This document shows, piece by piece, positions 210 through 15,469 of a stretch of DNA of 64,000 nt. The DNA is from Chitinophagales bacterium (GTDB lineage: Bacteria > Bacteroidota > Bacteroidia > Chitinophagales > UBA10324), in NCBI GenBank assembly GCA_013816805.1, contig JACDDS010000006.1, forward strand, positions 62,001 through 126,000. Direction: 5' to 3'. Every line of letters starts with the position of its first letter. Within the stretch, counting starts at the first letter, position 1. The notes under the pieces were generated by a model. That model saw only the letters and a list, made by a program, of their open reading frames with translations. It was not told where the DNA came from and searched no databases. The position numbers and the translations under genes were made by a program.

Positions 210-3200
210 ATGGCATCAAAAACCAGCGAAAGAGTAAATTTTAGCAAAACACCCATCAAGCTTGAATACCCGGATCTTCTTGGGATTCAACTTCAATCTT
301 TTAAAGATTTTTTTCAACTTGAAACCACCCCGGAAAACAGAAAAAACGAAGGACTTTATCGTGTATTCACTGAAAATTTTCCCATCAGTGATGCTCGGAA
401 TATTTTTGTTTTGGAATTTCTGGATTACTTTGTAGATCCTCCCCGATATACGATCGAGGAGTGTATTGAGCGTGGTTTGACGCATAGCGTTCCCTTAAAG
501 GCTAAGTTGCGCTTATCCTGTAACGATCCTGAGCATATTGATTTTCAAACAATAGTGCAGGATGTATTCCTTGGAAATATTCCTTATATGACGCCAAAAG
601 GCACCTTTTTAATAAATGGTGCTGAACGGGTGGTCGTTTCTCAATTGCACAGAAGCCCGGGAGTATTTTTCGGGCAATCGCTGCATCCGAACGGAACAAA
701 AATTTATTCGGCTCGTGTAATCCCTTTTAAGGGTGCGTGGATGGAGTTTGCGACTGACATCAATAATGTGATGTACGCTTATATTGACCGTAAGAAAAAA
801 TTTCCGGTTACTACCCTGCTTCGCGCCATTGGATGGGATACAGATAAAGATATTCTGGAACTATTCGAATTATCAGACGAAATTCCTGCTACCAGAGACT
901 CTTTGAAAAAAGCAGTTGGCAGAAAGCTTGCTGCCCGTGTTTTAAGGAGCTGGAATGAGGATTTTGTGGATGAAGATACCGGAGAAGTGGTAACTATTAC
1001 AAGGAACGAAGTGGTACTGGAACGGGATACCTTGTTAACAGAAAAAAACCTTGAAGAAATTCTGGAGACGGGTGTCGATACGGTTATTCTTCAAAAAGAT
1101 TCAGTAGCCGCCGATTATTCTATTATCTATAATACCCTTCAAAAAGATACATCTAACTCGGAGCTTGAGGCCGTTCAATATATCTACAGGCAATTAAGGG
1201 GCGCAGATGCTCCGGATGATGAAACGGCACGTGGAATTATTGAAAAATTGTTCTTTTCTGATAAGCGCTATGATCTTGGCGAAGTAGGGCGCTATAAGAT
1301 AAATCAAAAATTAAAGCAGGATTATGAGCTGGATAAGAAAGTTCTTACCAAAGAAGATATTATCCGCATTGTAAAATATCTTGTTCAGTTAGTGAATGAA
1401 AAGGCTGAAGTAGATGATATTGATCACCTCAGTAATCGTCGTGTTAGAACGGTAGGTGAGCAATTATATGCACAATTCGGAGTAGGCCTAGCCCGTATGG
1501 CGCGTACCATTAGAGAGCGAATGAATGTTAGGGATAATGAAGTATTTACTCCTATTGATTTAATTAACGCCCGCACCCTTTCATCAGTAATTAATTCTTT
1601 TTTTGGCACTTCCCAGTTATCTCAGTTCCTCGATCAAACAAATCCATTAGCTGAGATTACACACAAGAGGAGAATTTCTGCTCTTGGCCCCGGAGGTTTA
1701 TCCAGGGAACGCGCTGGGTTTGAAGTGCGTGATGTCCACTATTCACATTATGGTCGCTTGTGTACTATTGAAACTCCTGAAGGTCCTAACATTGGTCTTA
1801 TTTCAACACTTTGTGTACATGCAAAGATCAATCCCATGGGTTTCATTGAAACACCCTATCTGAAGGTTACAGAAGGAAAGGTGGAGATGAAGAAAAAAGC
1901 CATTTATCTTTCTGCTGATGAAGAGGATGACCGGATTATTGCCCAGGCTAATGTTCCCATTAATGAAAAAGGAGAGTTCACTATAGATCGTATCAAAAGC
2001 CGGTGGCATGGAGATTTTCCAATCGTAGAGCCTGATAAGGTTCAGTTTATGGATGTTGCTCCAAACCAAATTGTAGGAGTTTCAGCCTCTCTGATTCCAT
2101 TTTTGGAACATGACGATGCAAACCGTGCCCTTATGGGATCGAATATGCAACGTCAGTCGGTGCCACTTTTAAAACCCCAGTCTCCAATTGTAGGCACCGG
2201 ATTAGAAGCAAAGTCGGCAGTAGATTCCAGAATGCTTTTGAATGCTGAAGGAAATGGAGTAGTCTTTTATGTAGACGCAGATGAAATAGTGGTAGATTAT
2301 GAACGCAGCGAGGAAGATGAATTAATAAGCTTCGAAAGCAACCGTGTAGTATACAAGCTTACTAAATTTAAGAAGACAAATCAAAGTACCTGTATCAACC
2401 TTAAACCCATTGTGAAAAAGGGTGATAAGGTAAAGCCGGGTCAAATTCTTTGTGAAGGATATGGTACTGAAAATGGAGAGCTCGCCTTAGGCCAAAACCT
2501 TAGGGTTGCATTTATGCCTTGGAAGGGATATAATTTTGAAGATGCCATAGTGCTAAGCGAAAGAATTGTTCGTGAAGATATTTTCACTTCTATTCATATT
2601 GAAGAATATGAGCTGGAGGTGCGTGATACAAAACTTGGTGAAGAAGAATTAACCCCTGATATACCTAATGTGAGTGAAGAAGCCACACGCAATCTGGATG
2701 ACTTCGGAATTATACGTGTGGGGGCACATGTGCAGGAAGGCGATATCCTCATTGGTAAAATAACTCCAAAAGGAGAAAGCGATCCTACACCCGAAGAAAA
2801 GTTACTGCGCGCCATTTTTGGTGACAAGGCAGGAGATGTAAAGGATGCATCTCTTAAAGCACCTCCTTCCACTGAAGGTGTTATTATCGATAAGAAACTA
2901 TTTTCCCGCGCTAAAAAGGATAAAACTTCAAAAGTAAAGGAGAAGGTTTCATTGGAGAAGCTCGAGAAGGAACATACAAAAGAGACTTCTGAAATCAAAG
3001 AAGTGCTCCTTGAAAAACTAATGAAGCTTTTAAAAGATAAAACCTCCAAAGGCGTCATTAATGTTTATAAAGAAATAGTAATTGCAAAGGGTACCAAGTT
3101 TTCAGCTAAAATGTTAAACGACATTAAGTATGCTGAAGTGGATCCCGGAAATTGGACAAATGATGAACATACGAATGAGTTAATTAAAGTTCTTCTTCAT

Positions 3201-4013
3201 AACTTTACCATTAAACACAATGAAGAAGTAGGGCGTTATAAGCGTGAGAAATTTAATATCAGTATTGGTGATGAATTGCCATCCGGTGTTTTAAAGCTTG
3301 CAAAAGTATATCTCGCCAAAAAGAGAAAGCTGAAAGTTGGAGACAAGCTTGCCGGACGCCACGGAAATAAGGGGATTGTAGCAAAAATTGTCAGGGATGA
3401 AGACATGCCTTTCCTTTTGGATGGCACACCTGTAGACATCGTTCTTAATCCTCTGGGTGTACCATCACGTATGAACCTGGGTCAGATTTATGAAACGGTT
3501 TTGGGATGGGCTGGTATGAAACTGGGATTAAAATTTTCGACACCTATTTTCGACGGAGCTACCATTGAAGAAATTGAAGCTTATATTAAGAAGGCTGAAC
3601 TTCCTGCACTTGGCAAAACTTATCTGTATGATGGTGAAACAGGCGATCGCTTTCATCAACCGGCAACAGTTGGTGTTATATATATGCTGAAGCTTTCGCA
3701 CATGGTGGATGATAAGATGCATGCACGTTCTATAGGACCGTATTCTCTTATCACGCAACAGCCGCTTGGAGGTAAGGCACAGTTTGGTGGCCAGCGCTTT
3801 GGTGAAATGGAAGTTTGGGCACTTGAAGCTTACGGTGCATCCAATATTTTACAGGAATTGCTGACCATAAAATCAGATGACATTATAGGAAGGGCAAAAG
3901 CTTATGAGGCAATAGTGAAAGGAGAGAACCTGCCCAAGCCCAATGTGCCTGAATCATTTAATGTACTGGTGCATGAACTGAGAGGATTGGCGCTTGATTT
4001 AAAGTTTGATTAA
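210..4013 (+). CDS. rpoB: DNA-directed RNA polymerase subunit beta
   Basis: This is the beta subunit of RNA polymerase, 1267 residues, a full-length size for Bacteroidota. The rifampicin-binding region ([20 protein letters not shown], about residues 463-482) is intact and of sensitive type. The active-site region GRHGNKG lies near 1050 and the C-terminal segment [20 protein letters not shown] near 1180. A lysine/glutamate-rich insertion at about 900-985 is of the kind found in this phylum. The start ATG has no Shine-Dalgarno sequence. rplL is 79 bases upstream. The next gene downstream is not rpoC but a DUF3467 gene, with a terminator in between. I see no frameshift and no fusion to beta-prime. 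Confidence 0.98.
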
Positions 4014-4052
4014 CATCAATTCTGGTGTGAAATCACACAAAAGCTTAAAACA

Positions 4053-4078
4053 AAAGCCACCTCATACGGGGTGGCTTT
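4053..4078 (+). terminator. Rho-independent-like terminator after rpoB
   Basis: A perfect 9-bp stem (AAAGCCACC at 4053-4061, GGTGGCTTT at 4070-4078, 8-base loop) is followed by T-rich DNA. A weaker hairpin (GTGTG, loop AAAT, CACAC) lies just before it at about 4025-4038. Together they end transcription about 40-65 bases after rpoB, in the space where rpoC would normally begin. Confidence 0.7.
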
Positions 4079-4108
4079 ACATTTACTTTTATAGGTTAAA
4101 TTAAAACC

Positions 4109-4429
4109 ATGGAACCTAAAGATAAACCGCAACCACAGAACCAGATTAATATTGAATTGACCGATGATATAGCAGATGGAACCTATTCCAATCTCGCCAT
4201 CATTACGCACTCTAACCAGGAGTTTGTTCTTGATTTTATTAAAGTAATGCCAGGTGTTCCAAAAGCAAAAGTGAAATCGCGAATTATTCTTACCCCACAG
4301 CATGCAAAGCGTTTTTTAAAGGCATTGGCTGATAATATCCATAAGTTTGAACAGATGTATGGGGAAATACAGGAAGTGGAGGATATTAAAATACCGATGA
4401 GCTTTGGAGGTCCTACTGCTCAGGCATAG
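4109..4429 (+). CDS. DUF3467 family protein
   Basis: This is a 106-residue soluble protein of the DUF3467 family. The recognisable core is NIELTDDIADGTYSNLAIITHS, then EFVLDFIKVMPGVPKAKVKSR and ILTPQHAKRFLKALADNI. The family is small and functionally uncharacterised. As I recall, in Bacteroidota it normally sits just downstream of rpoC, which suggests a role connected to transcription. Here it follows rpoB directly after a 95-base gap with a terminator, so the gene is in its usual neighbourhood but rpoC is missing. It has no signal peptide or membrane segment. Confidence 0.85.
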   Translation: MEPKDKPQPQNQINIELTDDIADGTYSNLAIITHSNQEFVLDFIKVMPGVPKAKVKSRIILTPQHAKRFLKALADNIHKFEQMYGEIQEVEDIKIPMSFGGPTAQA

Positions 4430-4450: not shown

Positions 4451-5077
4451 TTAAGATTTGTAATTCATTACATCTAAATGTTTGGAGCAAAAAGTATATT
4501 CTCTGCTGATGTTTGAGCAAATAATAATTAAACGGTTTTCCATATAATTTTTCATCAAATCAAGGTACCATTCAACTCCGGCTTGATCAAGGTTTGTGGT
4601 AGGTTCATCAAGCAATACAACCGGAACATCTGCCAAAACAGCCAAAGCAAGTTTCAGTCGCTGTTTCATTCCGGATGAAAAGTTTCTAATCGGTTTTTCC
4701 TGGTTTTTTAAATCTGCTATCCTGATAAATTCCGGTGCAGTTAAATGGTTTTTAAATTTTTTGAAATTTTGCTGGAAGTCAATCATTTCGTTAAGGGTTA
4801 ATTCTTCTACCAATTCCAGGTAAGGTGTTGAAATGCTTAAATGCTTGAATATATTTTCAGGAAGAATTTTTTTTTCACCACTAAAAAAATCTATCGTTCC
4901 TGAGGAGGGGCTTAAAGAATAGGAAATTAATTGAAGTAAAGTGGATTTGCCGCTTCCGTTAGGACCTAGGATGGCATAGGCATTTCCTGATTCAAAAGTA
5001 TAATTGATGTTTTTCAGGATCCATTCAAAATTGAATCGCTTACCAGCGTTATTAATTTTGATCGTCATCGCGGCCAT
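4451..5077 (-). CDS. ABC transporter ATP-binding protein
   Basis: This 208-residue ABC ATPase has a Walker A motif (GPNGSGKST, about residues 38-46), a signature (FSSGMKQR) and a Walker B (VVLLDEPTTNLD). It is short for the family, with no extra domain and no permease next to it. It overlaps the 3' end of lpxA by 26 bases, or by 17 if the second Met is used (MTIKINN, start 5068), so the two are surely co-transcribed. The place at the end of the lipid A operon suggests a job in envelope lipid transport, but that is inference. The signature is closer to the CcmA-like drug/heme exporter group than to LptB. Confidence 0.85.
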   Translation of the reverse strand: MAAMTIKINNAGKRFNFEWILKNINYTFESGNAYAILGPNGSGKSTLLQLISYSLSPSSGTIDFFSGEKKILPENIFKHLSISTPYLELVEELTLNEMIDFQQNFKKFKNHLTAPEFIRIADLKNQEKPIRNFSSGMKQRLKLALAVLADVPVVLLDEPTTNLDQAGVEWYLDLMKNYMENRLIIICSNISREYTFCSKHLDVMNYKS

Positions 5078-5852
5078 TCGAATATCCTTTCATAATGCCT
5101 CGCTCAGATGTACGAATAAATTTCAGTATGGCATCGCGTTCCGGAGAAGATTCCATCTCTGATTCAACCAGGGTAAGTGCAATGGACGTATTGTGGTGCT
5201 CCACAAAAATAATTTTATAGATATCGTGAATACGGTTGATGGTATCTTCATCAAAGCCGCGGCGGCGTAACCCAATAGCATTTATCCCAGCGTAGGATAA
5301 TGGTTTCCTCGCAGCTTTCACGAATGGCGGAACATCCTTACCCACAAGCGAACCTCCCGAAATAAAGGAATGTTGACCAATTTTTACAAACTGATGAACA
5401 GCTGAGACACCACCCAAAACTGCCCAATCTTCTATAATAATGTGACCTGCCAGTGCAGCATTATTTGCAATTACGCAATTATTACCGATGTAACAGTCGT
5501 GAGCCACATGAGCATATGCCATCAGGAGGCAATTACTGCCTACCGCAGTTTTCCCACTGGCCATGGTACCTTTATTTACCGTTACACATTCACGGATAGT
5601 AGTGTTGTCTCCTATTTCTGCGAATGTGATCTCTCCCTTATATTTAAGGTCTTGCGGTTCGGCGGAAATAACTGCGCAGGGATAAATTTTACAATTTTTA
5701 CCGATTCGGGCGCCATTCATAATAGTTACATTAGGGCCAATCCAGGTGCCATCACCTATTTCAACATCTTCGTAAACCGTGACGAATGGACTGAAAATAA
5801 CATTTTTGCCAATTTTGGCTTTAGGATCAATGCTGGAAAGATTCAGTGACAT
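5052..5852 (-). CDS. lpxA: UDP-N-acetylglucosamine acyltransferase
   Basis: LpxA transfers a 3-hydroxyacyl chain from acyl carrier protein to the 3-OH of UDP-GlcNAc, the first step of lipid A synthesis, in the cytoplasm. The 266-residue protein has an N-terminal left-handed beta helix of isoleucine-rich hexapeptide repeats (residues 10-185) and a helical C-terminus. AHVAHDC at 114-120 holds the expected catalytic histidine (H118). The segment ISAEPQDLKYKGE, typical of LpxA, is present. It lies 61 bases downstream of lpxC-fabZ in the same direction, and the ABC ATPase gene overlaps its end. Confidence 0.96.
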   Translation of the reverse strand: MSLNLSSIDPKAKIGKNVIFSPFVTVYEDVEIGDGTWIGPNVTIMNGARIGKNCKIYPCAVISAEPQDLKYKGEITFAEIGDNTTIRECVTVNKGTMASGKTAVGSNCLLMAYAHVAHDCYIGNNCVIANNAALAGHIIIEDWAVLGGVSAVHQFVKIGQHSFISGGSLVGKDVPPFVKAARKPLSYAGINAIGLRRRGFDEDTINRIHDIYKIIFVEHHNTSIALTLVESEMESSPERDAILKFIRTSERGIMKGYSNGRDDDQN

Positions 5853-5913
5853 ATCGTCTTTAAGAGGCGCGCTTTAGTTAATAGTTTTTCAAAAAAATTG
5901 CAAATGTCAAAGT

Positions 5914-7314
5914 TTAACCTTGTTCTTTTCGCATGATTTTAGCCATAAGATCTGCTTCTGTTACCGCCTTATTGCCTACGTATACAGTGCCATGCATTTC
6001 GCATAAACCTCTGCGTATGGGGCTCAGTAATTCTAATTTTAAAATCATAGTGTCGCCTGGGACTACCTTATTCTTAAAGCGTGCTTTATCTATTTTTAAA
6101 AAATAGGTATCCCAGTTTTCGGGGTCATCCACTGTATTAAGCACCAATATCCCCCCGGTTTGAGCCATTGCTTCTATCTGCAAAACCCCCGGCATCACAG
6201 GGTTTCCAGGAAAATGACCCTGAAAAAAGCTTTCATTGAATGTTACATTTTTAATTCCTACTACATGCCGGTCGCTTAGTTCTATAATTTTATCTACCAG
6301 CAGGAACGGATATTTATGAGGCAATGACCGCTCAATTTTCCGCGTATCGTAAATAGGCGGTTGATTGGGATCATATATAGGGATGTCTTTCATGGCTTTT
6401 GACTCCTTAATGGCATTCTTAATTTTTTTTGCGAAAGCAATGTTTGTTGAATGTCCTGGTTTTGAAGCAATAATTTTTGCATGTATCGGTGTTCCAATAA
6501 GCGCCAGATCACCTATCACATCAAGTAGCTTATGGCGTGCAGGTTCATTAGTATAGCGAAGCGCTACATTATTTAAATAACCTTCTTCGACCTCAATGTC
6601 ATTTCTGTTGAATAGTGTGGCAAGTTTTTTAAGTTTTTCTTCCGCTACCACATGATCCACAATAACAAGTGCATTATTGAGTGATCCTCCACGAATAAGA
6701 TTGTGCTCTACCAGGTCTTCTATTTCATGAAGGAAACAAAATGTCCGGGCTTCTGCTATTTCATTTTGAAATTTACTAATATGGTCGACCTCTGCATGCT
6801 GCGGCCCCAGAACAGATGAATTATAATCAATCATAACGGTAAGCTGGTAATCATCTGAGGGAATGGCCACCATTTCAGCATTCTTCTGCTCATCCCTAAA
6901 GACTATATTTTTAGTCAGCTTGAAATATTCTTTTTTGAAGTCAGTTTGTTCCTGGACGCCTGCATCTAATATGGCATCTACAAACATACGGGAGCTGCCG
7001 TCCATAATCGGGACTTCTGATCCGTCTAACTCAATGAATACATTATCAATTTCAGTACCTACAAGGGCAGCTAATAAATGCTCTACCGTGTTTACCTTGG
7101 CACCGTTATGCGCTATAGTGGTACCCCGCGATACATCTACCACGTTATCTACATCTGCCTTTATGCTGGGCATACCTTCCAAATCAACTCTTCTGAAAAT
7201 ATAACCATTGTTGCCAGGGGCTGGTTTAATGGTCATATTCACACTTTCGCCTGTGTGAATACCAACCCCTGAAAGGGTAAATGAATTTCTTAAAGTTTGC
7301 TGATAGGCAGCCAT
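5914..7314 (-). CDS. lpxC-fabZ: Bifunctional UDP-3-O-acyl-GlcNAc deacetylase / 3-hydroxyacyl-ACP dehydratase
   Basis: This 466-residue protein is a fusion of two enzymes, which is usual in Bacteroidota. Residues 1 to about 310 are LpxC, the zinc-dependent deacetylase that commits the cell to lipid A: the start GVGIHTGE, the zinc-binding TVEHLLAAL (H79) and PIMDGSS are all present. Residues from about 325 are FabZ, with LPHKYPFLLVDKI, the catalytic histidine in GHFPGNPVMPGV (about 367) and the glutamate in QIEAMAQ. FabZ dehydrates 3-hydroxyacyl-ACP for chain elongation, and LpxA/LpxD use 3-hydroxyacyl-ACP, so the fusion joins two competing fates of one pool. It lies between lpxD and lpxA. Confidence 0.97.
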   Translation of the reverse strand: MAAYQQTLRNSFTLSGVGIHTGESVNMTIKPAPGNNGYIFRRVDLEGMPSIKADVDNVVDVSRGTTIAHNGAKVNTVEHLLAALVGTEIDNVFIELDGSEVPIMDGSSRMFVDAILDAGVQEQTDFKKEYFKLTKNIVFRDEQKNAEMVAIPSDDYQLTVMIDYNSSVLGPQHAEVDHISKFQNEIAEARTFCFLHEIEDLVEHNLIRGGSLNNALVIVDHVVAEEKLKKLATLFNRNDIEVEEGYLNNVALRYTNEPARHKLLDVIGDLALIGTPIHAKIIASKPGHSTNIAFAKKIKNAIKESKAMKDIPIYDPNQPPIYDTRKIERSLPHKYPFLLVDKIIELSDRHVVGIKNVTFNESFFQGHFPGNPVMPGVLQIEAMAQTGGILVLNTVDDPENWDTYFLKIDKARFKNKVVPGDTMILKLELLSPIRRGLCEMHGTVYVGNKAVTEADLMAKIMRKEQG

Positions 7315-9570: not shown

Positions 9571-10812
9571 TTATAAAGCAATGGCAATATCCGGATTGTT
9601 CTTAAGTTCCTTAGGATAACATAAAAAATATTTAATCACCGGCTGTTCGAGTGCAAGAATATTCGGCAGATCAGAAGCAGTTGTAATATCCTTTATTGAA
9701 CCATCATTGTATAAGATATTGATTGCACCTGAATCCGGGCTGTATGCATGGTTGCTGGTACTTTCACTAAAAACTAAATAATCCAGCTCATCTTCTTTAA
9801 GGTTTGAAACGTGTTTAAGTTGTTTTTTAAGAATCAAAATTTCCTCTTCATTTATTGATTTATCCCGTAATTCAACCCTGAATAATTTTCGGGACAGCAA
9901 GTTGCCAGACAACCAGCTTAAGATTTTATCATCATCATATCTCCACATTTTCATACTGCTGATAATGTCACTGTCATCAAGGTCACCAAAAGGTAATAGT
10001 ATTTGTTCCGGTGTTTCAGACTTAAACCTTTTCTCAAGAAAATAATTTAATGTACCTGTCGCACTTAGTTTTCTAATTGCTGAAATTTCCTTTGCACGCT
10101 GGATTACTTTAATAAGCATTTGCTCAGCAGCTAATACGGTTTTATGAAGGTATACTTGCCAATACATTAGTCGCCGCGAAATAAGAAATTTTTCTATTGA
10201 GTAAATCCCTTTTGATTCTACGAGCAATTCATTATCCCGGACTGTAAGCATTTTTATAATTCTGTCATAACCAATAATTCCTTCTGCAACTCCGCTGAAA
10301 AAACTATCACGGTTCAGGTAATCCAGACGGTCCATATCCAATTGACTTGAGACCAATTGATGTAAATATTTTTTTTTATAGTTCCCTTTAAAAATTTCTA
10401 TTGCCAGTGAGAGCTGCTGATCAAATTCGCGATTAAGCAGTTGCATGATTTCAACTGTAAGGATCTCATGAGAAATACCTTCAACTAGTATTCTTTCAAG
10501 GGTATGGGAAAAAGGCCCATGGCCTGCATCATGTAAAAGAATAGCAACGGTTACCGCTTCGGCTTCTTCAGCAGAAACTACTACTCCTTTATACCGAAGG
10601 ATCTCCAGGGTTTGATTCATAAGGTGCATAGAACCCAATGCATGTTGCAAACGGGAATGCTGTGCGCCCGGATATACAAGATATGTTAACCCTAATTGTT
10701 TAATGCGGCTCAGCCTTTGCATTAAAGGATGTTCTATCAGGTCGTATATCAGATCGGAGGGAATTGTAATAAATCCGTATACCGGATCATTAATGATTTT
10801 TCGCTTATTCAA
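9571..10812 (-). CDS. HD-domain phosphohydrolase (dGTPase/SAMHD1-like)
   Basis: This 413-residue soluble protein belongs to the HD superfamily group that contains SAMHD1 and bacterial dNTP triphosphohydrolases. The metal site is complete: HSRLQHALG with H52 and H57, HDAGHGPFSH with H94-D95 and H98, and a later aspartate in LDMDRLDYLNRDSFFSG, the segment typical of this group. By family it would hydrolyse dNTPs or a related nucleotide. The substrate cannot be read from sequence. As I recall, this gene next to lpxD and porX is a conserved arrangement in Bacteroidota. The stop is close to the end of the pseudogene. Confidence 0.85.
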   Translation of the reverse strand: MNKRKIINDPVYGFITIPSDLIYDLIEHPLMQRLSRIKQLGLTYLVYPGAQHSRLQHALGSMHLMNQTLEILRYKGVVVSAEEAEAVTVAILLHDAGHGPFSHTLERILVEGISHEILTVEIMQLLNREFDQQLSLAIEIFKGNYKKKYLHQLVSSQLDMDRLDYLNRDSFFSGVAEGIIGYDRIIKMLTVRDNELLVESKGIYSIEKFLISRRLMYWQVYLHKTVLAAEQMLIKVIQRAKEISAIRKLSATGTLNYFLEKRFKSETPEQILLPFGDLDDSDIISSMKMWRYDDDKILSWLSGNLLSRKLFRVELRDKSINEEEILILKKQLKHVSNLKEDELDYLVFSESTSNHAYSPDSGAINILYNDGSIKDITTASDLPNILALEQPVIKYFLCYPKELKNNPDIAIAL

Positions 10813-11132
10813 AAGCAGAAATTTTAGTAAAATAAAAGTAAAATGATTATTGTGATCGGTATAAAAAACCTGCAGACAATTCCAGCACCTTCATTTGGTG
10901 CAACCATACAATTTCATAAAACAGGATAATAATTTGAATTGGAAACGGACCATATTGAATGCATAGGCTCGGCAATATTTAAATTTGAAAACCGTTGCAT
11001 TAATTAAAATTAACAAAGGGAATTTTGGTTTAATGTATTATTTTTCTATTTGCCTTCATTATTAAAGTAAATTAAGGAACAACTGCTACTCTTTACTTGT
11101 TTTATTAATTCTAATTAGTAAATTTTTACAAT
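10813..11132. other. Intergenic region between the HD gene and porX
   Basis: These 320 A+T-rich bases separate two divergent genes and must hold both promoters. I found no perfect TAnnTTTG near either start; TATTTTTC at about 11037 is one mismatch away. I see no RNA gene, repeat or reading frame of note. Confidence 0.4.
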
Positions 11133-12689
11133 ATGGCTAATGAACCTACCATCTTATGGGTGGACGATGAAATTGAATTGCTCAAACCGCAAATTCTTTT
11201 TTTAAGAGAAAAGGGTTATCATATCATTGAAGCAAGCAATGGCATAGATGCTATAGAAAAATGCAAAGAAGAAGTTTTGGATATTGTTTTTCTGGACGAG
11301 CAAATGCCGGGAATGAGCGGAATTGAAACGTTAACAGATATAAAGTCTGTGCAACCGAATATTCCTATAGTGATGATCACCAAGAGTGAAGAGGAGAATT
11401 TAATGGAGGAAGCCATAGGTTCGCAGATCAGCGATTATCTTATAAAGCCGGTTAAGCCGCAACAAGTGCTTCTTACATTAAAGAAGCTGCTCGACAACAG
11501 GCGATTGATCAGTGAGAAAACAACTTCTGCGTACCAGCAGCAGTTCCAGCAGATCTTCTCACGTATAAGTATGGGATTAAATTATGAGGAGTGGGCAGAA
11601 ATATACCGCAAGCTAATATATTGGGAACTGGAGCTTGACCGGTCAAAAATTGCTGAAATGCGCGATGTTTTGGTAATGCAAAAATCAGAAGCGAATACTG
11701 AGTTTTGTAAGTTCATTGCTAAAAATTATAAATCATGGTTAAGTAAAACAGATGGAGATGCGCCCACGCTTTCTCATAACCTGATGCGCCATAAGGTATT
11801 TCCGTACCTGGAACCAGGTATTCCTACATTCTTAATACTCATCGATAACCTGAGGTTTGATCAGTGGAAAACTATTCAACCTTCTATCTCGGAATCTTTT
11901 AGGATCACGGATGAAGACTATTACTACAGCATTTTGCCCACTTCCACTCACTACAGCCGGAATGCCATTTTCTCCGGACTCATGCCACTTGATATTGAGA
12001 AGCGTTTTCCTAATTTCTGGTTAAATGATGAAGAGGAAGGAGGTAAGAACATGCATGAACAGGATTTTCTTTCAGACCAGATTTCACGGCTCAAGAAAAA
12101 CCTGAAACTATCGTATACCAAGATCACTAATTTTAATGATGGTAAGAATTTGGTCGATGGCATCTACAACATGCTTAACAATGATTTAAATGTCATCGTG
12201 TATAATTTCGTTGACATGCTTTCTCATGCACGTACCGAGATGGACGTACTTAAAGAGTTGGCAAGTGATGAAACTTCTTACCGCTCTATTACTCAATCAT
12301 GGTTTGATCATTCGCCACTGCACGATGCTTTAATGAGGATTGCCGAAAAAAATGTAAACCTTGTCATCACCACCGATCATGGAACCATTAGAGTAAAAGA
12401 ACCAGCCAAAGTTATAGGTGACCGGGATACTACGACCAATCTTCGTTATAAGCATGGAAAAAATTTGAATTATAATCCGAAAGATGTTCTGGAAGTTCGC
12501 AATCCGCATGAATTTCTTTTACCTAAACCTCATGTAAGCTCTTCTTATATTTTTGCGAAAGAGGATAAGTTCTTTGTTTATCCGAATAATTACAACTATC
12601 ACGTAAACCTGTATCGCAACACCTTTCAGCATGGCGGCATTTCTCTGGAGGAAATGATAGTGCCGGTGATCCGGTTAACGAAAAAATAA
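11133..12689 (+). CDS. porX: Type IX secretion regulator PorX (response regulator with PglZ domain)
   Basis: PorX, with the kinase PorY, controls expression of the type IX secretion machinery. The 518-residue protein has an N-terminal receiver domain (1 to about 125) with acidic residues D11-D12, the phospho-acceptor D55 (VFLDEQMPG) and a lysine in YLIKPVKP, then a linker and a C-terminal PglZ/alkaline-phosphatase-like domain (about 200-518). The PglZ domain shows LILIDNLRFDQW, a nucleophile threonine in the TSTHYSRN segment (about 271) and TTDHGT. In Porphyromonas this domain is a zinc phosphodiesterase acting on oligonucleotides. porT lies 9 kb away. Confidence 0.93.
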   Translation: MANEPTILWVDDEIELLKPQILFLREKGYHIIEASNGIDAIEKCKEEVLDIVFLDEQMPGMSGIETLTDIKSVQPNIPIVMITKSEEENLMEEAIGSQISDYLIKPVKPQQVLLTLKKLLDNRRLISEKTTSAYQQQFQQIFSRISMGLNYEEWAEIYRKLIYWELELDRSKIAEMRDVLVMQKSEANTEFCKFIAKNYKSWLSKTDGDAPTLSHNLMRHKVFPYLEPGIPTFLILIDNLRFDQWKTIQPSISESFRITDEDYYYSILPTSTHYSRNAIFSGLMPLDIEKRFPNFWLNDEEEGGKNMHEQDFLSDQISRLKKNLKLSYTKITNFNDGKNLVDGIYNMLNNDLNVIVYNFVDMLSHARTEMDVLKELASDETSYRSITQSWFDHSPLHDALMRIAEKNVNLVITTDHGTIRVKEPAKVIGDRDTTTNLRYKHGKNLNYNPKDVLEVRNPHEFLLPKPHVSSSYIFAKEDKFFVYPNNYNYHVNLYRNTFQHGGISLEEMIVPVIRLTKK

Positions 12690-12778
12690 ATGCCCTTTTT
12701 CGTTTAGATATTTTTAGTTTTCCAATATCAATTTATTCCTTTTAAATAGCTCCTTTAGTATACACTTTTGGTGTTGAT

Positions 12779-12786
12779 TACTTTTG
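12779..12786 (+). promoter_or_regulatory. Possible -7 element upstream of the PhoH gene
   Basis: TACTTTTG matches TAnnTTTG and lies 54 bases before the ATG. There is no good TTG at the expected distance upstream. Confidence 0.35.
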
Positions 12787-12840
12787 GCGTTTTACGATTG
12801 CTGCTGCACTTCGTCTTTCTAATTTTAGAAAATTTTTATA

Positions 12841-14175
12841 ATGACTGATGCCGACCGTAAGATTTTTGTGCTGGATACCTCTGTAATTCTTTATGACCAT
12901 ACTGCCATTAAAAACTTTAAGGAACATGATGTAGTTGTTCCGATCACTGTTTTGGAGGAACTTGATAATTTCAAGAAGGGTAACGATGAAAAAAATTTTT
13001 CTGCCCGTGAATTTATAAGATATATAGATAAGATAAGCGGTACCAACTCTCTTCAAAACTGGGTATCAATTAACGGTAATGGTCATGGACTTTTTAAGAT
13101 TGCATTGAGCCAGGCAAATGGAATGGATGCTGAAAAAATTTTTGGAGATCCCAAGGCAGATCATAAAATACTTAATTCTGCTCTGTACATTCAAAGGCAA
13201 TATCCGGCTAGGAAAGTAGTATTGGTCACCAAAGACATAAACCTGCGCATAAAAGCTAAGTCACTTAATCTTATTGCAGAAGACTATGAAACCGGTAAAA
13301 TCGGAAATGCTGAAAAGCTTTATACAGGAAAAACTACCAGTGAAAAAATTTCTTCTAATGCTGTTACTGAGCTCTTTGAAAACGGGTTTTGTAATCCTGA
13401 GCTGATATTCAAAAAAACATCTCCGGTTGCTAACCATTACTATATTTTTAAAAATATAAAAACGCATGCTGTCCTGGCTATTTATAATCCGGTAAAAGGC
13501 TTGCTGGAGCGTGTGGAGAAAAGATCCGCATCCGCTATTCATCCAAAAAATGCAGAACAGGTTTTTGCCCTGGATGCTGTTTTAAATCCGCGTATTAAAC
13601 TGGTAACCCTGCAAGGAGTAGCCGGTACCGGCAAAACACTATTGTCCCTGGCAGGAGCTTTAGAGCAGCGAAGAAATTTTCACCAAATATATTTAGCGCG
13701 TCCCATTGTCCCTTTGAGTAATAAAGACCTCGGTTACTTGCCCGGTGATATAAAGTCAAAGCTAAATCCTTATATGGAGCCTTTATGGGATAATTTGAAA
13801 TTTATTAAGAATCAATTTAGCGAGAAGGATAAGGAATTCAGGCAGATCAATGAAATGGTGGAGAAGGAAAAGCTGGTGGTTTGTCCCCTTGCTTATATCC
13901 GGGGTAGAAGCTTGTCAAATATTTTTTTCATTGTTGATGAAGCCCAAAACCTGACTCCTCATGAGGTAAAAACGATTATATCAAGGGCAGGTATTAATAC
14001 CAAAATAGTTTTTACTGGAGATATCTACCAGATAGATACCCCTTACCTGGATTCACGGAGCAACGGCTTATCATATCTGATTGAGCGTATTAAAGGTAAT
14101 CCGCTATATGCCCATGTAACTCTTGAAAAAGGAGAGCGGTCGGAACTGGCAAACCTCGCGAATGATTTTTTATAA
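12841..14175 (+). CDS. PIN-domain PhoH-family ATPase
   Basis: This 444-residue protein joins an N-terminal PIN nuclease domain (about 1-140; acidic residues in FVLDTSVILYD, EELDNFK and ITKDINLRIKA-like segments) to a C-terminal PhoH ATPase. The ATPase has Walker A (GVAGTGKTLL, about 259-268), Walker B with DEAQN (about 364-368) and the ARPIVP segment typical of PhoH. PIN-PhoH proteins (YlaK/PhoH2 type) are thought to be RNA helicases/ribonucleases; that is family knowledge. It follows porX by 151 bases in the same direction but probably has its own promoter. Confidence 0.9.
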   Translation: MTDADRKIFVLDTSVILYDHTAIKNFKEHDVVVPITVLEELDNFKKGNDEKNFSAREFIRYIDKISGTNSLQNWVSINGNGHGLFKIALSQANGMDAEKIFGDPKADHKILNSALYIQRQYPARKVVLVTKDINLRIKAKSLNLIAEDYETGKIGNAEKLYTGKTTSEKISSNAVTELFENGFCNPELIFKKTSPVANHYYIFKNIKTHAVLAIYNPVKGLLERVEKRSASAIHPKNAEQVFALDAVLNPRIKLVTLQGVAGTGKTLLSLAGALEQRRNFHQIYLARPIVPLSNKDLGYLPGDIKSKLNPYMEPLWDNLKFIKNQFSEKDKEFRQINEMVEKEKLVVCPLAYIRGRSLSNIFFIVDEAQNLTPHEVKTIISRAGINTKIVFTGDIYQIDTPYLDSRSNGLSYLIERIKGNPLYAHVTLEKGERSELANLANDFL

Positions 14176-14225
14176 TGCCATTAAATAATCCTGGATACGT
14201 AAATGAAGGAAATACTGTAAATAAA

Positions 14226-14250
14226 AAAGGTTGAGATGAACTCAACCTTT
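14226..14250 (-). terminator. Terminator between convergent PhoH and OmpA-family genes
   Basis: A perfect 10-bp stem (AAAGGTTGAG, 5-base loop ATGAA, CTCAACCTTT) is followed on the minus strand by TTTTTT. It most clearly serves the minus-strand DUF937-OmpA gene, but the stem also lies after the plus-strand PhoH gene. Confidence 0.75.
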
Positions 14251-14272
14251 CCTAGTATACAATTTATAAAAG

Positions 14273-15469
14273 TTACTTTGCAACTAACTGCACTGAAATT
14301 CTACGGTCTGTTTTGCGTTCTTCGTCACTTGCAGTTGCAGGCATTTTAGCAAATTGAGAACCATAGCCTTCTGCACCAGTTACCTGAGAAGCCACACTTC
14401 CATCGGCTTTCAGAGCAGATGCCACTGTTTGTGCCCGGTCTTCACTCAATTTCTGATTTACTGCTGCGTCACCTGTATTATCAGTATAGCCACCTATTTT
14501 AATTTTAACTTTCGGATATGCTTTTAAAATCATATCTATATTATTAAGCTGGCTTTTACTTTCGGATGTTAAACTGGCACTTCCCATTTCGAAATTAATA
14601 TTATCAAAATCAAACCACTTATCTTTTCCTGCTTTACAGGCGTCATCATTTAGACAAGCAACTAATTGATCCTCTATTCCCCCCTTATAAGCATCTAATT
14701 CGGTACCATCAGCCAATTTTACCTTCATCGTTTCACGTTCGGTAGTAACCGGCGCTGCTTTTATCATGGTGGTAGTAGTATCAATTGTTGTAACAGGCGT
14801 ATTATCCTTATTTTTTAAACCCTGGCTAAGAAAGTAAAGCAATAAGGCCAGTGCAGCAAGGCCAATCAGAATAGGTACTGTTCTGTTAGGTTTTGCCTTA
14901 TTTACAGGAGCAGAGGTTGTGTTAGTATAAGTTTCTGTATTGCGATTACTATTTAACCCTAGCAGAGCAGGAATGGAAAAACCAGCGGGCATTGCAGCAG
15001 CAACTTTCTCTTTATGTTCAGTGAGTAACGAAGATAAACTGCCTGATGATAGGTTATTGGTCGTGGCATGTCTTCCTAATAAACCTATTACTATCGGAGC
15101 CAGCATACTCAATAAGGAGCTCGCAGAAGAGGATTTGATTCCGGAATGCCTGCCAACAGCATCTGTGATTGCACTGTGGCCTCCACCAAAAATGGAGCCT
15201 AGCAAAGAAGTTGAGCCGGAACCGGGACTGTTAAATAAACCGGCAGGATTGGTATACTCAGGATTTTTACCTGCCTGCATTACTTCATTTAGAAGTGAAG
15301 AGCCTTCACCTCTTTCTACTTTATGTATTAAACCGGCAATAATAGCGGGAACGGCAACACCCATCGCTTTAGTAACTGCAGTATTGCTCTCTCCCAAATG
15401 AGATGAGAGATTATCAATATGATTAGGTGTAATCATATTCATAACAGAATCCAGGATATTAAATGACAT
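14273..15469 (-). CDS. DUF937-OmpA fusion envelope protein
   Basis: This 398-residue protein has three parts. Residues 1 to about 185 form a DUF937-like (YidB-like) domain rich in Gly, Ser and Leu, with no signal peptide. A single membrane helix follows at about 198-216 (PILIGLAALALLLYFLSQGL) with a Thr-rich linker. Residues about 285-398 form an OmpA-type peptidoglycan-binding domain, with NFEMGSASLTSES, GYTDNTGDAAVNQKLSEDRA and the closing RRISVQL. The likely topology is cytoplasmic DUF937 and periplasmic OmpA domain bound to the cell wall. The role of the DUF937 part is unknown. It is convergent with PhoH, with a strong terminator between. Confidence 0.85.
   Translation of the reverse strand: MSFNILDSVMNMITPNHIDNLSSHLGESNTAVTKAMGVAVPAIIAGLIHKVERGEGSSLLNEVMQAGKNPEYTNPAGLFNSPGSGSTSLLGSIFGGGHSAITDAVGRHSGIKSSSASSLLSMLAPIVIGLLGRHATTNNLSSGSLSSLLTEHKEKVAAAMPAGFSIPALLGLNSNRNTETYTNTTSAPVNKAKPNRTVPILIGLAALALLLYFLSQGLKNKDNTPVTTIDTTTTMIKAAPVTTERETMKVKLADGTELDAYKGGIEDQLVACLNDDACKAGKDKWFDFDNINFEMGSASLTSESKSQLNNIDMILKAYPKVKIKIGGYTDNTGDAAVNQKLSEDRAQTVASALKADGSVASQVTGAEGYGSQFAKMPATASDEERKTDRRISVQLVAK

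Follow-up and report, generated by a model that had tools for sequence, protein, structure and literature searches.

The genes rpoB and rpoC lie side by side in most bacteria and are among the most conserved bacterial gene pairs; the usual assumption is that one message for the β and β' subunits of RNA polymerase aids their balance and assembly. In Helicobacter and Wolbachia the two genes are fused. The secE-rpoBC cluster has been described as one of the best-conserved bacterial gene clusters, yet it can be altered (PMC8046335), and in Synechocystis PCC 6803 rpoC1 is monocistronic while rpoC2 forms an operon with rpoB (PMC6037674). Here we consider the genome of an uncultured member of the Chitinophagales, phylum Bacteroidota (G000), in which rpoB has lost rpoC as its neighbor. 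The rpoB gene is found in a stretch of 64,000 nucleotides on contig C6, the whole of which is called the window below. In the part of the literature that we searched, no description of separated rpoB and rpoC in Bacteroidota was found. Our reading, to which we give a probability of about 0.9, is that the separation of the rpoBC operon is real and vertically inherited, with two transcription units, assembly of the subunits in trans and a later move of the DUF3467 gene.

The rpoB and rpoC loci

In the window, rpoB is a complete open reading frame on the forward strand (210..4013) that codes for a β subunit of 1267 aa and closes a unit with the order rplA-rplJ-rplL-rpoB (L003). The next gene is not rpoC, which in the canonical arrangement begins no more than a few hundred bp after the stop codon of rpoB, but the DUF3467 gene (4109..4429, forward strand, ATG at 4109, 106 aa, PF11950). 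The gap of 95 bp between them (4014..4108, forward strand) contains no rpoC remnant: its six frames, read by eye, gave no RpoC peptide, and there are no N letters in the window or at the rpoC locus. RpoB ends normally with Rpb2_7, the C-terminal domain of RpoB in Pfam, and its stop codon at 4013 leaves rpoC as a separate reading frame and no fusion to β'. The initial annotation was thus right that rpoC is missing from between rpoB and the DUF3467 gene, that no fragment of it is left in the gap and that RpoB is not fused to β'. The end of the unit is marked by a convergent gene for an ABC-transporter ATPase (4451..5077, reverse strand), followed by lpxA and lpxC-fabZ. This lpxC-lpxA-ABC operon (4451-7314 in the window) also adjoins rpoB in a genome of another family (G044, L097), where the orientation of rpoB relative to the operon is opposite; the shared neighborhood could mean that the surroundings of rpoB in G000 are old. 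In the family of G000 (f1 in our working family codes), rplK is also apart from rplA (G000:C10:17611-17784; L003:8163-8421), so that the cluster rplKAJL-rpoBC is broken twice.

A protein-family search of the genome's own assembly, the check that the initial annotation had proposed, finds one intact rpoC outside the window (C14:84604-88908, equal to L004:9604-13908, forward strand, complete, 1434 aa). The gene is single-copy, and the genome is rated 100% complete. Both RpoB and RpoC are full-length standard subunits with all of the Rpb2 and Rpb1 Pfam domains. The neighbors of rpoC are unrelated to it: a divergent glycoside hydrolase gene lies 327 bp upstream, and the gene for a protein with a Por_Secre_tail domain (type IX sorting tail) lies downstream. 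A comparison of the flanks found no synteny between the rpoC locus of G000 and those of its relatives; other f1 members, unlike G000, have an asparaginase gene or other neighbors near rpoC in common.

Distribution of the separation

We compared the positions of the RpoB C-terminal and the RpoC N-terminal domains in 100 relatives from the group of G000, including MAGs, 83 of which could be scored. The two genes are adjacent in 55 of the 83. Every resolved member of f1 is split (adjacent in 0 of 12), which answers the comparison with related genomes that the initial annotation called for, and the same holds for f16 (0 of 5); one of the eight f8 genomes keeps the genes adjacent, and f21 has a single split member (G097). 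G002 retains both genes on the same strand and in the old order at 14.7 kb from each other, and in G053 the distance is 12.2 kb. An insertion of just 1.6-2.1 kb separates the genes in G066, G080 and G202, the last being outside the order. The inserts of G066 and G080 (about 2 kb) sit at the rpoB/rpoC junction that is also interrupted in G202, where the insert is a gene for a 483-aa type IX-secreted protein (L216:4461-5912). The "different contig" scores of G078, G090 and G093 are uncertain, their genes being at or near contig ends.

Among the genomes of the class outside the order for which both matches are listed, 116 of 121 have the genes adjacent. The five exceptions are three f58 genomes, G272 and the insertion-bearing G202; two genomes of the Cytophagales type (G108, G109) appear split too. 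Parsimony on an RpoC tree of 63 rows requires at least seven changes of state, one of which may be a regain of linkage in G075, unless f8 was split more than once. In G075, an f8 genome, rpoB and rpoC are linked while its relatives are split, and rplL is absent upstream, which places the break between rplL and rpoB (L091:2620-10806). Related lineages have lost the rpoBC linkage several times independently, and the split dates back to the origin of f1; it is possibly a single event common to f1 and f16, a grouping with a tree support of 47.

Transcription signals and the place of the DUF3467 gene

We turn to the signals around the separated genes. Of 28 separated rpoB genes, 25 are followed by a sequence that satisfies a strict rule for intrinsic terminators; of 18 that are adjacent to rpoC, none is. 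The initial annotation described a clear terminator behind rpoB in the window, and half of that description stands. There is a hairpin with an 11 bp stem (4053..4078, forward strand, arms 4053-4063 and 4068-4078), the 119-nt segment around it folds at -31.6 kcal/mol (z -4.9), and it resembles the hairpin 3' of rpoB in G007; it fails the strict rule, however, because its T-tail (TTTACATTTACTTTTA) is weak and interrupted. No clear terminator was found behind rpoB in the two genomes of genus g2. A hairpin with a T-run is also located 3' of rpoC in G000.

Upstream of rpoC in G000, at about 180-185 bp, is the box TATCTTTGC. It conforms to TAnnTTTG, the -7 element of Bacteroidota promoters. In an alignment of the region upstream of rpoC from 12 f1 genomes (290 columns), the only invariant columns are those of TAnnTTTGC and one column near the ATG; the chance expectation of this 9-base box is 0.03 per 260 bp. 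The box lies at -137 to -186 before rpoC in most f1 members, and in genus g2 it is found at -151 (G008) and at -61 (G001, where the start codon is uncertain). Six f1 members carry TAnnTTTGC some 50-60 bp before rplA as well, with a similar start sequence after it. A structured regulatory leader before rpoC was also considered and rejected, as Rfam gave no matches and folding of the alignment gave no pairs. From the conserved box and the hairpin, rpoC is predicted to have its own promoter and a monocistronic transcript. It is plausible that β and β' synthesis is uncoupled at the level of transcription, and we infer that the promoters are active and hold the two subunits in balance.

The position of the DUF3467 gene bears on how this state arose. 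The order rpoB-rpoC-DUF3467 is found in many linked relatives, though not in all, so that the rule given in the initial annotation, that DUF3467 follows rpoC, is only in part a general one; in one relative that is otherwise linked (G096), the DUF3467 frame contains one internal TAA (G096:C10:17292-17555). Within f1, the gene lies 3' of the separated rpoC in G003, G004, G005, G006, G009, G010, G012, G013 and G014, two of which (G003, G009) belong to the sister genus. In G001, G002, G007 and G008 it is elsewhere and is followed by a phytoene-desaturase-like gene, which follows it in G004 too. Among the 100 relatives surveyed, DUF3467 behind rpoB is peculiar to G000. Since the sister genus and most relatives keep the gene with rpoC, it is improbable that in G000 an rpoC flanked by rpoB and DUF3467 was excised, and we have dropped such an excision as the leading view. 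The suggestion that rpoC moved cleanly elsewhere thus survives in the intact single copy on C14 and the family-wide split, while the removal that it implied at this particular junction is probably wrong. On the simplest reading, the rpoBC linkage was lost long ago and DUF3467 was relocated afterwards, in the lineage of G000. The -7 box before DUF3467 in G000 (TACTTTTA) is without its last base when compared with that of G004 (TACTTTTG); this loss and the weak T-tail would fit read-through from rpoB.

Alternatively, the rpoC-DUF3467 pair may have been duplicated in the f1 ancestor, after which the old rpoC disappeared from the G000 lineage, where the old DUF3467 stayed behind rpoB, and the other lineages lost both old copies. 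This proposal concerns solely the origin of the present state and not the separateness of the genes. The short leader of DUF3467 in G000 does resemble that of G004 behind rpoC (TACTTTT-AGGT), and the lpx genes next to rpoB in both G000 and G044 would be in keeping with an undisturbed site. On the other hand, two copies of rpoC would have to persist through several speciations and then be lost about five separate times, and the likeness of the rpoB hairpins of G000 and G007 looks as if DUF3467 had entered behind a pre-existing rpoB terminator. We consider the duplication unlikely, though worth keeping in mind.

Returning to an old separation with a later move of DUF3467, the steps would be as follows. 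In the ancestor of f1, possibly together with the neighboring family, the cluster rplKAJL-rpoBC would have broken at rplK|rplA and at rpoB|rpoC, giving, among other units, P-rplA-rplJ-rplL-rpoB-terminator and P-rpoC-terminator, with DUF3467 originally behind rpoC. The β and β' subunits would then be made from two mRNAs, read from two promoters of one Bacteroidota class with similar first transcribed sequences, and would have to assemble in trans. In the lineage of G000, DUF3467 would later have left rpoC for its position just behind rpoB.

Assembly, inheritance and known systems

The question "is the separation a product of the assembly?" arises with rpoB on C6 and rpoC on C14 (108,606 bp), separate contigs of a draft, and with the suggestion of the initial annotation that about 4.3 kb had been lost. 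If 4.3 kb had been collapsed or swapped, rpoC would in truth lie between rpoB and DUF3467. Such errors do occur among the compared genomes. In SZAS-61 (L106, JAFDYT010000004.1, rpoC 10001-14308), rpoB and the 5' part of rpoC, both of the Cytophagales type, are joined to the 3' part of an f1-type rpoC, and the other Cytophagales half of rpoC (L221) sits on the edge of a contig and starts precisely at the conserved NADFDGDQMA motif. SZAS-61, which would have been an f1 member with linked rpoBC, was judged chimeric from sliding identity, trees and this second half at a contig end, and it was dropped from the comparison. In G000, by contrast, the junction falls within intergenic DNA that is not conserved, and rpoC is complete and internal to its contig (the nearest end is 19.7 kb away), which is similar in composition to C6 (the tetranucleotide profiles correlate at 0.93-0.98). 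The 11 other f1 members, assembled separately, show the split too, and the separated copies bear promoter and terminator signals of their own. A loss in the assembly is effectively excluded.

The RpoB and RpoC trees both group G000 with genus g4 (G003, G011) inside f1 and contain the same subclades, and this agreement excludes horizontal transfer. Replacement of the native rpoC by a foreign copy at a new site would account for a new locus without a remnant, but it is most improbable given the congruence of the two trees for f1 and given that the RpoC of the sister genus is the closest to that of G000 along its length.

Beyond this genome, it is conceivable, and we offer it tentatively as something short of an even chance, that the rpoBC linkage has been repeatedly and stably abandoned in Bacteroidia, with the balance of β and β' restored by a matched pair of promoters and perhaps by an altered route of assembly. 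These lineages would then be natural experiments that show what purpose the near-universal linkage serves. The family f1 and the further independent losses in the class provide matched separated and linked sister lineages in which the linkage assumption can be tested. Caution is advised in these groups when rpoBC is concatenated or typed by synteny.

Compared with the canonical rplKAJL-rpoBC (β) operon, G000 retains the order rplA-rplJ-rplL-rpoB and standard domains in all of the proteins; it differs in the location of rpoC and rplK, both of which have left the cluster, and in the terminator-like hairpin that follows rpoB. A large polymerase subunit gene has been shown to be a monocistronic unit in Synechocystis and is predicted to be one in G000. 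The β' of Synechocystis is made as two proteins with rpoC2 remaining with rpoB, whereas in G000 a whole, intact rpoC has left rpoB. The fused rpoB-rpoC of Helicobacter and Wolbachia is likewise a departure from the two-gene operon, but in the opposite direction, the genes of G000 being further apart. Monocistronic polymerase genes are already known; the parts found in G000 are ordinary, and it is their arrangement that is unusual.
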